This document shows positions 1-10,342 of a DNA stretch of 49,089 bases, piece by piece. The stretch's first letter is position 1; every line of letters starts with the position of its first letter. Under the pieces are notes generated by a model that did no database searches, was not told where the DNA came from, and saw nothing but the letters and a program-made list of their open reading frames with translations. The stretch spans positions 1 through 49,089 of the forward strand of contig JABMNN010000057.1 of assembly GCA_013204545.1 (NCBI GenBank), read 5' to 3'. The stretch comes from Chloroflexota bacterium. GTDB taxonomy: Bacteria > Chloroflexota > Dehalococcoidia > Lucifugimonadales > Lucifugimonadaceae. The position numbers and the translations under genes are program-made.

Positions 1-500
1 AGCAGCCAGACTGATATCTCAGCTTTTTCACCCTCTTCAAGAAGGCTATCTGAGTTGCTATTGCCAACCCATGAAACAGTCCATGGGACGTCTGACAGGT
101 ACTGGTTCTTGTCTATGTACGAGACAACAGTCTTGTACTCAGCACTTGCGGAGATATCTGGGTCGGTGCCGGAGCCGCCAACGGTGTACGGAGGAGTCAG
201 ATCGACTGGCTCACCCGAAACAGCGTTAGAGACCACGAACGATACCTTGTAGATGGTGTCGTTTGTGCCCTCGTTACCCTTGTAGGCAATGACAGAACCA
301 CGTGGTTCGATCGAGCTCTTCGCTTCTTCGAGTCCGGCGAATACCGTCTCTTTTGATCGCTCTGAGGCAAAGATACCTGTCGAGAGAACAGTGAAAGCGA
401 ACACCGATGCAACGACCACGAAAGCGATGAGGATGATTGCGGTCTCAAGACCGGTGATTCCCTTTTCGCTCTTCGGTGAGCCGAAGTTTTGCGTAAACAT
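1..500 (-). CDS. arlB: Archaellin (archaeal-type flagellin), 3' part cut by window start
   Basis: The minus-strand frame opens with ATG at 500 and stays open to the window edge (166 codons seen). The leader is MFTQNFGSPKSEKG, followed by the hydrophobic helix ITGLETAIILIAFVVVAS. This is the class III (prepilin-type) signal of archaellins, expected to be cut after the Gly at residue 14 by an ArlK/PibD-type peptidase. The mature protein would polymerise into the archaellum filament through this helix. AGGAG lies 7 bases upstream of the ATG and supports the start. The next ~45 residues are almost the same as in the two archaellins downstream in the window, and the globular part shares the TDPDI, LSDVPWT and LLEEGEKAE blocks. 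The C-terminus is missing only because the window ends. Family assignment is strong; the place in a filament is inferred. Confidence 0.9.
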   Translation of the reverse strand, partial: MFTQNFGSPKSEKGITGLETAIILIAFVVVASVFAFTVLSTGIFASERSKETVFAGLEEAKSSIEPRGSVIAYKGNEGTNDTIYKVSFVVSNAVSGEPVDLTPPYTVGGSGTDPDISASAEYKTVVSYIDKNQYLSDVPWTVSWVGNSNSDSLLEEGEKAEISVWL

Positions 501-697
501 TTTTTTGTCTCCTAGATCCGTCATCGCTGACGGTAGCCAGTTGGTCATCCTCATTTGCTGTTCCTGTCGTTCAGTTCTGGCTATGTACCAAGCAACAATC
601 GTCGCAGCTATGCGTACCAAGTTAGCCTTAGTTTGATTGTTGGGGAATTGAGTTGACTCCAACGCTGGGGGTGTGGAAACCCACAGAGCGTGTTAAC

Positions 698-730
698 AAA
701 AACAGCCACCGGAAAACCCATGGCTGTTTC
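698..730 (-). terminator. Intrinsic terminator after the second archaellin
   Basis: On the minus strand, AAACAGCCA pairs with TGGCTGTTT (729-721 with 708-700) around a 12-base loop, and the right arm runs into further T residues. It lies 33 bases past the stop of the archaellin at 763-1473. The first archaellin therefore probably has its own promoter between 501 and 697. Confidence 0.75.
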
Positions 731-762
731 AAAAGATCCGTAGAACGTTGGAAGTTCAGGAA

Positions 763-1473
763 CTATTTGAGGTCCATGACCGTGTCGAGTCTGGAAGGAG
801 CTGTACGCTGCATTGTTAAAACTGCTCCACTGTTCGGCTTCATTTCGAATGTGAACTGGCCGTTCGCTGCGATTAGAGTTCCTGAAGAGAGCATTCCGTG
901 CGAACCATTTACATCGGCAACCCAGTAACCGGTGGACGCCGCATCTGTAACAGCGGTACCGGTTTCGCGTTTCAAAAGCCAAACAGTTACTTCGGCTTTT
1001 TCACCCTCTTCAAGAAGGTTGTCCCCGTTGCTGTTACCGACCCAAGAAACTGTCCAAGGGACATCTGAAAGATGCTGGTTGTGGTCTGTATATGAAATAA
1101 CAGTTTTGTACTCAGCACTTGCGACAATATCCGGGTCTGTGCCAGTTCCCCCTTCGGTATACGGTGGCGTTAGGTCGACTGGTGCACCAGAGACTGAGTT
1201 CGATACGACCCACGAAACTTTGTAGATGGTCTCTGTTCCTCCACGGTTCGCTTTAAAAGCAATAACCGAACCGCGTGGTTCGATCGAACTCTTCGCTTCT
1301 TCGAGTCCGGCGAACACTGTCTCTTTTGAACGTTCAGAAGCGAATATGCCTGTGGACAAAACGGTAAATGCGAATACCGATGCCACTACTACAAAGGCAA
1401 TAAGGATGATGGCGGTCTCAAGACCGGTAATACCCTTTTGTGCCACAGCCTTTGTTTCTATATTTAACAGCAT
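763..1473 (-). CDS. arlB: Archaellin (archaeal-type flagellin)
   Basis: Complete archaellin of 236 residues. I chose ATG at 1473, giving the leader MLLNIETKAVAQKG. It is 14 residues, the same length as the leaders of both neighbouring archaellins, and has GGGGAG 9 bases upstream. An in-frame ATG at 1496, also with a good GGGAG, would add 8 residues; an ATG start at 1536 is less likely. After the predicted cut (KG/ITG) comes the polymerisation helix ITGLETAIILIAFVVVAS, then a conserved ASERSKETVFAGLEE segment and a beta-rich globular domain with TDPDI, LSDVPWT and EEGEKAEVTVWLL. One N-glycosylation-type sequon (NGS) is present. Multiple archaellin paralogues in tandem are usual in archaea, where they give major and minor filament subunits; the division of labour here is unknown. 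Confidence 0.93.
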   Translation of the reverse strand: MLLNIETKAVAQKGITGLETAIILIAFVVVASVFAFTVLSTGIFASERSKETVFAGLEEAKSSIEPRGSVIAFKANRGGTETIYKVSWVVSNSVSGAPVDLTPPYTEGGTGTDPDIVASAEYKTVISYTDHNQHLSDVPWTVSWVGNSNGDNLLEEGEKAEVTVWLLKRETGTAVTDAASTGYWVADVNGSHGMLSSGTLIAANGQFTFEMKPNSGAVLTMQRTAPSRLDTVMDLK

Positions 1474-1646
1474 TTCTGCAGTCTCCCCAACTCTCATACT
1501 TGCTCTCCCAGCGTCTGCCAGTTTCGTTGTGAACAACTGAACCTAACGGCGCTTCCATTGAATACAACATTAGGCAATGAGAAATCTAAGGTCGGTCGGG
1601 TCGGCACACATTCATGAGTGTGTTTACACCAGTGATTATTACGAAG

Positions 1647-1674
1647 AATGTCCAACGAATATTCGTTGGACATT
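1647..1674. repeat. 28-bp perfect palindrome between archaellin genes
   Basis: The 28 bases read the same on both strands (arms AATGTCCAACGAAT and its complement, no spacer). It lies 27 bases past the stop of the 1701-2426 archaellin and about 170 bases before the start of the next one. There is no T-run, so it is not a textbook intrinsic terminator. It could be a processing or attenuation hairpin that sets the ratio of the archaellins, or a dimeric operator for the 763-1473 gene. Confidence 0.6.
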
Positions 1675-1700
1675 TGTACCTTGCCCTTGATGCCTGAAAG

Positions 1701-2426
1701 TTATTTTAGGTCCATGATCGTATCGAGCTTAGATGGTGCTGTTCGCTGAATCGCTAGCGTAGAGCCGCTCTCGGGCTTCACTTCCAGAGTGAACTGGTCG
1801 TTGACGTTGATGAGTGTCCCAGCTGTCAGGATGCCGCTACTACCGTTGGAGTCAACCGAGGCGTACTTCTGTACTCCGTTACTTGCGGTCGGATCAGAAA
1901 CGCCGTTGAGTCGTTGGAGCAACCAGACGGTAATTTCGGCCTTTTCACCTTGCTCTAGGAGATTGTCACTGGCTGACAGACCAAGAAACTTGATTGTCCA
2001 TGGTACGTCAGAAAGGTACTGGTTTTTGTCCTGGTACGAGATGACTGTCTTGTACTCAGCAAGTGCGACGATATCTGGGTCGGTGGATGAGTCATCATAA
2101 GAATACGGCGGGGTTAGATCCATTGGTTCACCGGAGACCGCGTTGCCGACGACGAAGCTAATCTTGAATATTGCGTCATCTGCACTCGTTGTGCCTGCGC
2201 GCCCTTTGAAAGCGATAACACTTCCACGGGGTTCTAGAGAACTCTTGGTTTCTTCTAGACCTGCGTAAACGGTTTCCTTGGATCGCTCAGAAGCGAACAT
2301 ACCTGTCGACAAGACTGTAAACGAGAAAACTGAAGCAACTACGACGAATGCAATCAAAATGATAGCCGTCTCTAGCCCGGTAATTCCGCGCTGACAATTT
2401 TGTGCGACCGGCTTGCTCATTTTCAT
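1701..2426 (-). CDS. arlB: Archaellin (archaeal-type flagellin), first of the array
   Basis: Complete archaellin of 241 residues, the promoter-proximal gene of the minus-strand array. ATG at 2426 is supported by AAGGAG 10 bases upstream and gives the 14-residue leader MKMSKPVAQNCQRG; the ATG at 2420 is too far from the ribosome site. Cleavage is expected at RG/ITG, before the helix ITGLETAIILIAFVVVAS. The globular part keeps the TDPDI, LSDVPWT and LLEQGEKAEITVWLL blocks but is the most divergent of the three, with insertions near residues 75 and 190 (one NGS sequon). No other archaellum gene (arlF, arlG, arlH, arlI, arlJ) lies in the window, so the motor genes must be elsewhere or beyond the left edge. 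Confidence 0.93.
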   Translation of the reverse strand: MKMSKPVAQNCQRGITGLETAIILIAFVVVASVFSFTVLSTGMFASERSKETVYAGLEETKSSLEPRGSVIAFKGRAGTTSADDAIFKISFVVGNAVSGEPMDLTPPYSYDDSSTDPDIVALAEYKTVISYQDKNQYLSDVPWTIKFLGLSASDNLLEQGEKAEITVWLLQRLNGVSDPTASNGVQKYASVDSNGSSGILTAGTLINVNDQFTLEVKPESGSTLAIQRTAPSKLDTIMDLK

Positions 2427-2875
2427 CTCTCGGATACTCCTTAAGATTTGGGCGTATCCAAATTCCCCTTGTGTGTTGAGTGGGAATTAGGTTGGTGGGA
2501 ATGAACATGCGCACGAGAGCGCGTACTCGACCTGACCGTCCAAATTTATCTACTAGTGCAACGTTATTTACACATAGACATATGTGGTATTGGGATCGCA
2601 CCAAGAACCCCGACGTGCCTCCCCTAAAGGAGTGCCTGGTGGGGCGTACGAATAGAGTGTGGGAATGCACTCATGTATTGGCACCTAGCACGACGCGTGG
2701 GTTGCTCTAACGACGCCTGAACTATCGACAGACAGTATTAGGTAATACGTTCGGTGGATAACGGCTAGCGATACCCGGCATCAGTATTGCGCCTTCAGCC
2801 AGCACCTATCCGTAACGGGGGCAAGCGAATCAAGTAATCCCGTCAGATTCTTGGTCGTATACAGGGGAATTTTGA
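2427..2875. other. Divergent intergenic region, archaellin array / response regulator
   Basis: 449 bases with no credible gene. It must hold the promoter of the archaellin array (minus) and of the response regulator (plus). Seen in it: an inverted repeat at 2571-2586, and AGGGGA at 2863-2868 serving the regulator start. Short frames crossing it on both strands have no family-like content. Confidence 0.6.
2571..2586. promoter_or_regulatory. Inverted repeat, candidate operator
   Basis: CACATA-GACA-TATGTG, two 6-base arms with a 4-base centre, about 145 bases upstream of the first archaellin and 290 upstream of the response regulator. Dimeric NarL-type regulators bind sites of this kind. The link to the neighbouring regulator is a guess from position only. 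Confidence 0.3.
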
Positions 2876-3604
2876 ATGCAAACAATATCTGTTCTTATTG
2901 CGGACGATCACGAATTGACTCGTGAAAGCCTCGCAGTTCTTCTCGACCGTGAGTCGGGAATCGAAGTAATCGGCGTTGCAGCCGACGGTCGTAGTGCTAT
3001 TACAATGGCGAAATCGCTTCAACCATCAGTAGCGATTCTTGATGTCAGCCTACCTATGATCAATGGCATACAAGTCGCACGTCAGTTGCGTGTAGACAGC
3101 CCACGCACGGGTATCGTCATGCTTTCAACTCACGATCGTGGAGAGTATCTGAAAGAGTTCATGCGTGACGATTCGGCAGGCAAGGCATTCTTGCTGAAGT
3201 CGACTCTGCGAAACACTCGTGACATCGTACGGTCCATAGAGGATGTAGTGGCCGGACGTACGGTTCTCGACCCTGCAATGGTGTCGAAACTTACTTCCGA
3301 TGAAGGTGTTCGCCTGAGCGGTGCGCTAAAGAATCTCAGCCCACGGGAACTACAGGTTCTCGGTCTGATGGCTAGAGCTCATTCGAACCGCGCTATTGCT
3401 GAAGCTCTGTTCATCCAACCACGTACAGTGGAACATCACATCAGTAGTGTTCTCGCAAAGCTTGGATTCAATTCCAGTGGTGATAGACATGGACGAGTAT
3501 TCGCCATTCTTACGTATCTGGAATCGACAGGCCAGTTGCCGATGCACGAGGGTGATGTTGAGCGGGCTTTTGATGTCGTGCCACATCTCCAGATGATTGC
3601 CTAG
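2876..3604 (+). CDS. NarL/LuxR-family response regulator
   Basis: 242 residues. Residues 1-125 form a receiver domain: acidic pair D10-D11, phospho-acceptor D56 in AILDVSLP, and the late Lys in AFLLKS. Residues ~150-215 form a LuxR-type helix-turn-helix beginning LSPRELQVLGLMA and containing NRAIAEALFIQPRTVEHH. The start has AGGGGA 7 bases upstream. No histidine kinase is adjacent, so its sensor is unknown. It is transcribed away from the archaellin array across a shared 449-base region, which makes it a natural candidate regulator of archaellin expression. That link is inferred from position alone. A stem-loop terminator follows directly. Confidence 0.92.
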   Translation: MQTISVLIADDHELTRESLAVLLDRESGIEVIGVAADGRSAITMAKSLQPSVAILDVSLPMINGIQVARQLRVDSPRTGIVMLSTHDRGEYLKEFMRDDSAGKAFLLKSTLRNTRDIVRSIEDVVAGRTVLDPAMVSKLTSDEGVRLSGALKNLSPRELQVLGLMARAHSNRAIAEALFIQPRTVEHHISSVLAKLGFNSSGDRHGRVFAILTYLESTGQLPMHEGDVERAFDVVPHLQMIA

Positions 3605-8450: not shown

Positions 8451-9314
8451 TTAGTCCCACTTGATGCCGATCTGTTCGGCGATTTTTCGAATTCCTGCGG
8501 CGGCAACCGGGATCTTATCGTCAGGCAGGTGCTCGACTAGCACGTGTGCCTTCGGGTTCACTTTCTGAAGGCCAAGTAGCAATGCTTCGTTGTCGAGCAG
8601 GCTTTCGGGTTGTCCAATGATCGACTCTTCGAAGTGCGGGAGTAGTGCATCTACGACGGTGAAATCCTTAGCGTGGCAGCCAACGATTCGATCGGGAATA
8701 AGTTCGTAGAACTCGTTGATGAGCGAAGTAGTGTCGTAGGCGATGTCAAGCGAGCCAATGAAGTTCACGGGATCCATGTTCAGGCCGAGTGCCTTTGATC
8801 CAACAGCGTCGATGAGATCCTTCATGCGTTGGGGTGAGTCAATTGGGCAGACCGTTCCGCCTTCGACTGCCATCATGATTCCTTCGTTCTCGGCAACTTG
8901 GCAAATCTGTTTTGTGCTGTCGACGAGTCGATCGAATACCTCATTTGAATGATTCAATGGATGAGGCATCCAGCCGCCTTTTGGACTAAGACTTCCGGGG
9001 CGAAGGTATGTGTTTGGGCTACCGAGGCGAGCCGTGAGGTTGACCATACGCTTTACGAATTTGATCTCGTTCTTGCGTTGGGTTTCATCTTCAGCGATGA
9101 GCTTACCACCGTAATTACCGACGGTTTGTGGCATAGCAAACCCACGTGCATCAAACATGGATCGCAGACGTTTTACATCTGTGTCCTTCATGGACTCTGG
9201 ATCAGATACTCGGATTTGAACGGTCTTGAATCCGTGCTTGGCAACGTTGTCGAGCACTGCCCCATCAATTGATCTCCAGTCGCCTGGTACCAGACCCGCA
9301 ACACCTAACAGCAT
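8451..9314 (-). CDS. Sugar phosphate isomerase/epimerase-like TIM-barrel protein
   Basis: 287 residues, AP-endonuclease-2/xylose-isomerase-like barrel family. Conserved features: VEGG around residue 152 (metal-ligand Glu), LGLNMDPVNFIG (Asp), VGCHAKDF (His and Asp) and VLVEHL near the end (Glu). These resemble the four metal-binding positions of the family. Members interconvert keto- and aldo-sugars or epimerise them. GGAGAGG 7 bases before ATG supports the start. It is upstream of the SDR gene on the same strand (114-base gap) and may be co-transcribed with it as a sugar-catabolism pair. Confidence 0.85.
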   Translation of the reverse strand: MLLGVAGLVPGDWRSIDGAVLDNVAKHGFKTVQIRVSDPESMKDTDVKRLRSMFDARGFAMPQTVGNYGGKLIAEDETQRKNEIKFVKRMVNLTARLGSPNTYLRPGSLSPKGGWMPHPLNHSNEVFDRLVDSTKQICQVAENEGIMMAVEGGTVCPIDSPQRMKDLIDAVGSKALGLNMDPVNFIGSLDIAYDTTSLINEFYELIPDRIVGCHAKDFTVVDALLPHFEESIIGQPESLLDNEALLLGLQKVNPKAHVLVEHLPDDKIPVAAAGIRKIAEQIGIKWD

Positions 9315-9505
9315 GAGAAAACCTCTCCACGAATATCACGTCGAATTGCAGGAAGGTCAGCGTCATCCCTGCATAATTTGGAATACGCGCCTCGTGCAGC
9401 ACCGTAGGTAACCCTACGAACGGTGACCAAGCTTATCGGCAACGAGGGCTACTTGGGTAGTTTCGCTAATAGATTTTTAGAGAGCAACTGCAGAAATGGT
9501 AAGCA

Positions 9506-10342
9506 ATGATTGAAGAAAACACTACCAAGTCTGGCATTGAGTGGCAGAGAACAGTCGAAGGTGAGCATGCCCAGTCTGATCGCGTTAGAGAAGAGACTGC
9601 ATCTGACGATTTTTGGCGTCCTGTAGCTCATAGATTTGTCCCACCAATGAAGGGTGAATCGGCGGCAGATGACACTGTCGAAAGGCTTGCCGAGCTTGTC
9701 TCTCCAACAGAAACTGTCCTTGATGTTGGAGCGGGTGGCGGGCGTTTGGCGGTTCCGCTAGCTGAATATTGTTTTCACGTTACGGCGGTCGAGCCTTCTG
9801 AGGCGATGAGGGAACAACTTGTTGCAACCGCAGAAGCATGGGGCGTTCAGAACATTTCGGTGGTTCCGGGCACATGGGAAGAAGCGGTAGTAGAACCTCA
9901 CGATCTAGTGGTGTGCGCTCACGTGGTATATACCGTTACAGGAATCGAGAGTTTTATACGTAAGTTGAGCAGTAGTGCTCGCAATACAGCGGCACTCATC
10001 ACATTCGAACGCCCGGCTACTGCCACCTTTCTTCCGCTGTGGTCGTATATTCACGACGAAGAGAGAATCGAACTTCCTACTCTTCCTCAGATCGAATCTC
10101 TTCTCAGTGAAATGGATATTGAGTTCAGTAAAGTGCGACTCAAAGAGTGGATTTCTAGGCCGTTCAAGAGCAAAGAACAAGCGTTTACTGAGTGTCAGGC
10201 GCGATTGTTCATATCACCCGATTCAGATAAAACTAGAAAGCTCTGGGACGTACTTGGTGAAGTTCTGGTTGAAGTCGATGGTGGCTTTAGACTCAAATGG
10301 ACTGAACCTCACCGCCCGCAAATTGTTAGTTGGGATGTTTAG
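9506..10342 (+). CDS. Class I SAM-dependent methyltransferase
   Basis: 278 residues. Motif I is VLDVGAGGGRLAVPL (about residues 72-86), followed by VTAVEPSEAM (acidic residue binding the SAM ribose) and VVPGTWEE. The sequence then has DLVVCAHVVYTV, the position of motif IV. The C-terminal half has no clear family, so the methyl acceptor is unknown. No strong Shine-Dalgarno is seen before ATG 9506. It stands alone, divergent from the TIM-barrel gene and 72 bases before mgtE on the same strand. Confidence 0.85.
   Translation: MIEENTTKSGIEWQRTVEGEHAQSDRVREETASDDFWRPVAHRFVPPMKGESAADDTVERLAELVSPTETVLDVGAGGGRLAVPLAEYCFHVTAVEPSEAMREQLVATAEAWGVQNISVVPGTWEEAVVEPHDLVVCAHVVYTVTGIESFIRKLSSSARNTAALITFERPATATFLPLWSYIHDEERIELPTLPQIESLLSEMDIEFSKVRLKEWISRPFKSKEQAFTECQARLFISPDSDKTRKLWDVLGEVLVEVDGGFRLKWTEPHRPQIVSWDV

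Follow-up and report, generated by a model that had tools for sequence, protein, structure and literature searches.

The DNA analysed here (the window) is the entire contig C42, 49,089 b in length, of a genome of 2.95 Mb in 134 contigs (92.16% complete, 3.24% estimated contamination). Its first 2426 bases carry three tandem archaellin genes, all on the minus strand and the third truncated at the contig end, with a response regulator gene lying divergently beside them. The genes and elements identified in this part of the window are as follows.

1701..2426, minus strand: archaellin gene 1 (array position 1), complete, 241 aa, 14-residue leader, mature start I at base 2384
763..1473, minus strand: archaellin gene 2, complete, 14-residue leader, mature start I at base 1431
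1..500, minus strand: archaellin gene 3, ATG at 500, 14-residue leader, 3' end lost at the contig end
1649..1672, minus strand: intrinsic terminator after archaellin 1, 10-bp perfect stem and T-rich tail
700..729, minus strand: intrinsic terminator after archaellin 2, stem around CAGCCA/TGGCTG and T tail
2589..2604, minus strand: TTGGWG-N6-CAAT upstream of archaellin 1, candidate regulatory site
647..662, minus strand: TTGGWG-N6-CAAT upstream of archaellin 3, candidate regulatory site
518..533, minus strand: small hairpin 4 nt before the archaellin 3 Shine-Dalgarno, weak (9/100 shuffles reach its score)
2876..3604, plus strand: NarL/LuxR-type response regulator, divergent from the array

We found that all three archaellins matched PF01917 (Arch_flagellin) above the curated cut-off (E 4.0e-22, 1.9e-19 and 1.7e-20 for genes 1, 2 and 3), and the two complete ones also exceeded the cut-off of 20 with NCBIfam arch_flag_Nterm (30.5 and 28.1 bits). 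In each gene the ATG lies exactly 42 nt (14 codons) upstream of the mature ITGLETA, so that the mature helix ITGLETAIILIAFVVVASVF is preceded by a 42-nt leader, and the leaders end in QRG, QKG and EKG. The window genes thus have the class III leader and the conserved N-terminal helix of ArlB archaellins, and the earlier note, which had described three tandem archaellins with archaeal class III leaders of 14 residues each, was right on both points. The best match of gene 1 among solved structures was chain 9i5h, 'Flagellin' (E 1.6e-36), which we take to be the Litorilinea aerophila filament structure of PMC12488501: the position of the mature start and the residues of the metal site agree with the numbering used in that paper. 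Using this numbering, and counting by hand on the gene 1/9i5h alignment, we identified the metal-site residues D127, E131 and E134, retained as D-x-L-L-E-x-G-E in all three window archaellins, while D121 falls in an alignment gap in gene 1. The residue two before the D of D-x-L-L-E-x-G-E is N in genes 2 and 3, A in gene 1 and S in the position-1 copies of four relatives.

The left 10 kb of the contig, which the comparison covered, was collinear with the chromosome of Ca. Lucifugimonas marina JH1073 (CP046147.1; SAR202, Chloroflexota). The collinear genes comprise the archaellins, the response regulator, a peptidase, an enolase-superfamily gene and further genes; the main aligned pieces share 74.5-78.6% DNA identity, and archaellin gene 1 is 82% identical to its counterpart. 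The two genomes apparently belong to the same genus, because G086, a same-genus genome of the order survey, shares the archaellin coordinates of CP046147.1, from which we infer that G086 is JH1073. In the four relatives used for comparison, the response-regulator stretch likewise adjoins the array. Outside the array, the source genome carries four further, solitary archaellins (on C97, C134, C71 and C132, the last close to a contig end), and no further array-type archaellin was found in it. On C134 (L016:8354-10069), two adjacent response-regulator-like genes, named by eye, adjoin the solitary archaellin, as a regulator adjoins the array.

Motor, peptidase and chemotaxis genes

The motor genes that the earlier note proposed to look for elsewhere in the genome were found on contig C131. 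This contig begins with an archaellin 3' end, followed by a 43-residue ORF, a 320-aa ORF at the arlCDE place, arlG, arlF, arlH, arlI and arlJ, and then by a histidine kinase and two response regulators (one of them named by eye). ArlI scored 623.3 bits with NF058587 (cut-off 550), with FlaI ATPase 4ii7 as structure match (E 4.4e-116). ArlH scored 260.1 bits with the FlaH model NF004723 (cut-off 194) and 198.5 bits with the ArlH model NF052589, under the cut-off of 215; Walker motifs are present in both proteins. ArlJ was recognised by NF004703 over nearly its whole length (E 1.9e-117), at 392.8 against a curated cut-off of 570, while the ArlG match (E 2.5e-06, 27.6 bits) is far under the cut-off of 110. 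ArlF, at E 0.071 with PF22201, was named by position, as was the ORF at 365-1327 in the arlCDE place, for which the family-model search gave no meaningful match. With arlF so named, arlG precedes arlF, which is the Chloroflexota-type order. In 5/5 close genomes the short ORF separates the last archaellin from the arlCDE place.

L014:231-362 (C131): conserved 43-residue ORF, ending VFPLIADIRARVLSPGDEF
L020:15671, L021:15696, L022:14709, L023:14736: counterparts of the 43-residue ORF

In JH1073 the locus lies on a single chromosome and, read as far as arlI, runs response regulator, six archaellins, arlCDE place, arlG, an extra arlF-like gene that C131 lacks, arlF, arlH and arlI. The array on C42 and the motor genes on C131 are on separate contigs, and their predicted linkage rests on this synteny; the assembly is compatible with archaellin 3 running into C131 directly or via intervening archaellins. 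Outside the arl locus, two tandem ArlF-like genes were observed on C56 (L019:8472-8996 and 9229-9756), with PF01917 above its cut-off and a weak ArlF model match.

The only type IV leader peptidase found is on C47 (L073:1199-1957); it matches PF01478 and PF06750 and is therefore of the bacterial A24 type. A search of the genome for the PF06847 peptidase gave none. Of the ArlK/PibD-like peptidase that the earlier note looked for, then, a leader peptidase is present and its type is bacterial. The FlaK candidate of SAR202 isolates was likewise named by PF01478 (PMC10444878), and SAR202 members are stated to have an archaeal-like PibD (PMC12488501). The source genome seems to differ from the latter statement, unless a PibD gene lies in the unassembled part.

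For chemotaxis, family models identified CheA, CheC and CheD on C66, where CheY- and CheB-like genes adjoin them by eye, and CheW with an MCP on C12. Another MCP, on C44 (L074:2266-3897), carries a protoglobin domain, which suggests aerotaxis. Growth of cultured Ca. L. marina is inhibited by light. A Flagellin_N search of the genome returned no match. A separate T2SSE/T2SSF pair lies at C112:107450-109731, and a bacterial type IV pilus-like system therefore probably coexists with the archaellum genes. Of 197 genomes sampled from the order, 54 had a PF01917 match, as did 9 of 13 listed genomes of the same genus (the source genome among these). Because the family model also recognises ArlF/ArlG-like genes, such numbers do not count archaellins. 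The remaining four of the 13 (G114, G186, G188 and G192) had no PF01917 match, which may reflect either a loss of archaella inside the genus or incomplete assemblies.

Transcription signals of the array

We applied a strict rule of a hairpin followed by a T-run to the tails of genes with the stop in view. A terminator followed 19 of the 20 non-last array archaellins, namely both testable window genes and 17/18 in JH1073 and three MAGs, the sole miss being position 1 of L021. Among last array copies only one of four had a terminator, a weak 5-bp stem in L023 (the last copy on C131 was outside that test), and none of six solitary archaellins did (four in the source genome, two in JH1073). Shuffled tails passed the rule in 0-8 of 100. 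The stem letters vary on both sides between copies (CAGCCATTGG/CCAATGGCTG, CAGCCACTGG/CCAGTGGCTG, CAGCCACCGG/CCGGTGGCTG). This layout suggests that the array archaellins would form separate, abundant transcripts, the last copy alone being joined to the motor genes; processed polycistronic mRNAs are the analogy behind this reading.

Another element lies at the archaellin/motor junction, downstream of the last array copy:

L014:85-156 (C131): long hairpin, by eye with no T-run

It occurs in 5/5 close loci and is weakest in L023. The folding energies in C131, JH1073 and the three MAGs were -57.0, -52.3, -56.7, -50.9 and -30.0 kcal/mol, against shuffle means of -26.3, -29.9, -28.3, -31.1 and -21.3 kcal/mol in the same order. 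In the five-row alignment 3/22 pairs changed on both sides and several pairs were broken in some rows, and the RNAalifold covariation term of +0.68 gave no support. A model built from the five loci (R1), run over 51 sources, recovered those five (four on both strands, as is usual for a hairpin) and no convincing further locus, with a best other E of 0.082. Six other SAR202 loci with motor motifs after the last archaellin (L030, L033, L041, L045, L055 and L061) gave mixed tail z values of -1.2, -5.6, -3.2, -1.8, -3.7 and -3.3, respectively. On C97 (L015 from 10054) a solitary archaellin is followed by a strong fold (z -7.8) that failed the T-run rule and has no motor genes behind it. Given the lack of covariation, the limitation of R1 to its own loci, the mixed folds and the C97 fold, we rejected the hairpin as a widespread element. 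An Rfam scan of the window gave nothing at the gathering threshold; near the junction, Rfam gave one chance-level match.

Of 25 array copies, 17 have TTGGWG-N6-CAAT at a distance of 192-220 nt upstream of the mature start; it was found in none of the five position-2 copies, window archaellin 2 included, and before none of six solitary archaellins; shuffles contained it at 0.0036 and 0.011 per sequence. As a candidate element linked to the array this enrichment is suggestive only, because the compared rows are related. Exact matches genome-wide numbered 19, versus 5 for the reversed control, and two of the 17 off-array matches, on C54 and C66, were inspected and both lie within genes; a regulon is not claimed. 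Among the 15 array copies from position 3 onwards, 13 showed a stem ending 4-5 nt before the Shine-Dalgarno; this candidate was set aside, as shuffles matched its score in 0-23 of 100 and RNAalifold predicted no consensus pair. The words 'terminator', 'promoter' and 'paralog' are absent from the main text of PMC12488501, and no account of SAR202 array transcription signals was found within the openly available literature searched.

Host, paralogue age and function

The archaellin 1 loci found in the named genome collection (n=44) all bear titles of Chloroflexota/Chloroflexi, Dehalococcoidia, Dehalococcoidaceae, Dehalococcoides or Ca. Lucifugimonas. Based on these 44 loci, the JH1073 collinearity and the genus kinship, the host is identified, from sequence comparison, as a SAR202 bacterium. 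An archaeal contig, or archaeal contamination within a bacterial bin, might be suspected from the archaeal origin of the archaellins and of ArlH, ArlI and ArlJ, from the 3.24% contamination estimate and from the 16S search, which found none in the genome (and was also blank in 5/14 control genomes). However, the complete JH1073 chromosome carries the same archaellins with the same neighbours in unchanged order, intrinsic terminators lie within the array and a NarL-type regulator lies beside it. For the left 10 kb, synteny with CP046147.1 rules out an archaeal contig, and we give this explanation practically no weight; the bacterial host assumed by the earlier note is borne out by that synteny with a named Chloroflexota chromosome and by the genus kinship.

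A second alternative concerns the origin of the tandem copies, which could represent a recent amplification homogenised by gene conversion, for dosage or recombinational variation. Among the window copies, 50-55 of the first 55 residues of the mature protein do agree. A tree was built from 75 archaellins after 7 of the 82 rows had been removed; in it, positions 3-6 were intermixed and formed some lineage-specific pairs; in one such pair, JH1073 positions 3 and 4, 46/54 codons are identical. Yet the position-1 copies of five genomes (source, JH1073 and three MAGs) formed one clade with support 100/99. The position-2 copies of four genomes grouped weakly (84/36; 89/70), together and with the C97 archaellin, and that of the fifth genome (L023) fell with position-3 copies. 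Over the first 55 mature codons, where chance identity is 19.3 of 55, genes 1 and 2 shared 50/55 residues with 18/50 codons identical at those residues, and genes 1 and 3 shared 50/55 residues with 16/50 codons, both about chance; genes 2 and 3 shared 55/55 residues and 28/55 codons. Since the residues agree while the codons are near chance, the archaellin helix appears to be kept by selection and not by recent copying. The chance-level codon identity also argues against gene conversion for gene 1, and recent amplification is in our view quite improbable. The array archaellins are, by these comparisons, old paralogues; the test shows 'old' but not how old, because orthologous codon identity with JH1073 is only 24/53 for gene 1 (34/54 for gene 2 and 43/55 for gene 3), silent sites being nearly saturated.

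Taken together, the archaellin identity, the class III leaders and the motor genes on C131, in the contiguous order of the relative, make it very probable that the window genes are the upstream part of an arlB array in a bacterial arl locus of a SAR202 bacterium of the Ca. Lucifugimonas genus. As in known archaella, the leader peptidase would remove the 14-residue leader, ArlI, ArlJ and ArlH would assemble the mature subunits into a filament via the conserved N-terminal helix, and ArlI would then turn the filament against ArlF and ArlG, steered by the chemotaxis proteins. From the DNA layout, the array genes are predicted to be transcribed for the most part as separate units, each with a terminator at its end; only the last archaellin would read through into the motor genes, and filament subunits would thereby be made in large excess over motor parts. 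Given the age of the paralogues and the selection on their helix, the copies probably serve distinct segments of the filament or distinct conditions, and not only dosage.

Alternatively, the filament could be a non-rotating or vestigial archaellum-derived pilus, serving adhesion or surface sensing without a propeller: PMC10444878 (Lim et al.) calls SAR202 cells non-motile and reports archaella as not observed, and the number of archaellins is unusual. The presence of motor genes with Walker motifs, of CheA, CheC, CheD, CheW and two MCPs by family models, and of CheY and CheB by eye, speaks for a rotating archaellum instead, and we regard the pilus explanation as unlikely. An extended version of the arl-locus reading is possible but doubtful, namely a composite filament of anciently distinct subunits, with position 1 as a base or cap segment, and with bacterial transcription control laid on an archaeal machine through the terminators and through a junction hairpin that would process or stabilise the transcript. 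We keep it tentative, because R1 is limited to its own loci, the folds are mixed and the C97 fold stands without motor genes. Transfer of a working machine from archaea to bacteria is rare, and bacterial archaella are an example of it. The window suggests a way in which such a machine acquired the host's own transcription signals, and a reason why SAR202 retains many old archaellin paralogues despite cells described as non-motile; both ideas are testable in a cultured relative.

Comparison with known archaella

The locus adds one more SAR202 genome to those with a system of this known kind, and the new detail, paralogue age and transcription layout, is modest. Archaellum genes had been noted before in some Chloroflexota, as the earlier note stated, both in SAR202 isolates (PMC10444878) and in L. 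aerophila (PMC12488501); the same two reports supersede its description of bacterial archaella as little studied. PMC12488501 reports archaellum machinery in 243/3,780 Chloroflexota genomes, a 2.7 A filament, swimming of L. aerophila with a working archaellum, and transfer from euryarchaeal members; PMC13319060 treats the L. aerophila envelope. In the SAR202 isolates described in PMC10444878, a tandem run of six flaB precedes flaGFHIJ, six more flaB are scattered, and a FlaK candidate is named.

With the archaeal archaellum (arl/fla locus) the source genome shares ArlB, ArlH, ArlI and ArlJ homologues and ArlF/ArlG-like genes, but it differs in its bacterial host, its intrinsic terminators and its bacterial-type A24 peptidase, with no PF06847 peptidase found. 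With the L. aerophila archaellum it has kindred archaellin (9i5h), class III leader, arlG before arlF and most of the acidic metal-site residues in common. The metal-site D121 of L. aerophila has no counterpart in gene 1, and the source genome, unlike that system, has at least seven archaellin genes; filament and swimming have been seen in L. aerophila but not in SAR202. Compared with the Ca. L. marina arl (flaB) cluster, three array archaellins are visible before the contig end instead of six, the extra arlF-like gene inside that locus is absent from C131, and two ArlF-like genes lie apart on C56. The two clusters are alike in the flanking genes over the left 10 kb, in apparent genus, in the tandem archaellins followed by the arlCDE place, G, F, H and I, and in the extra solitary archaellins.
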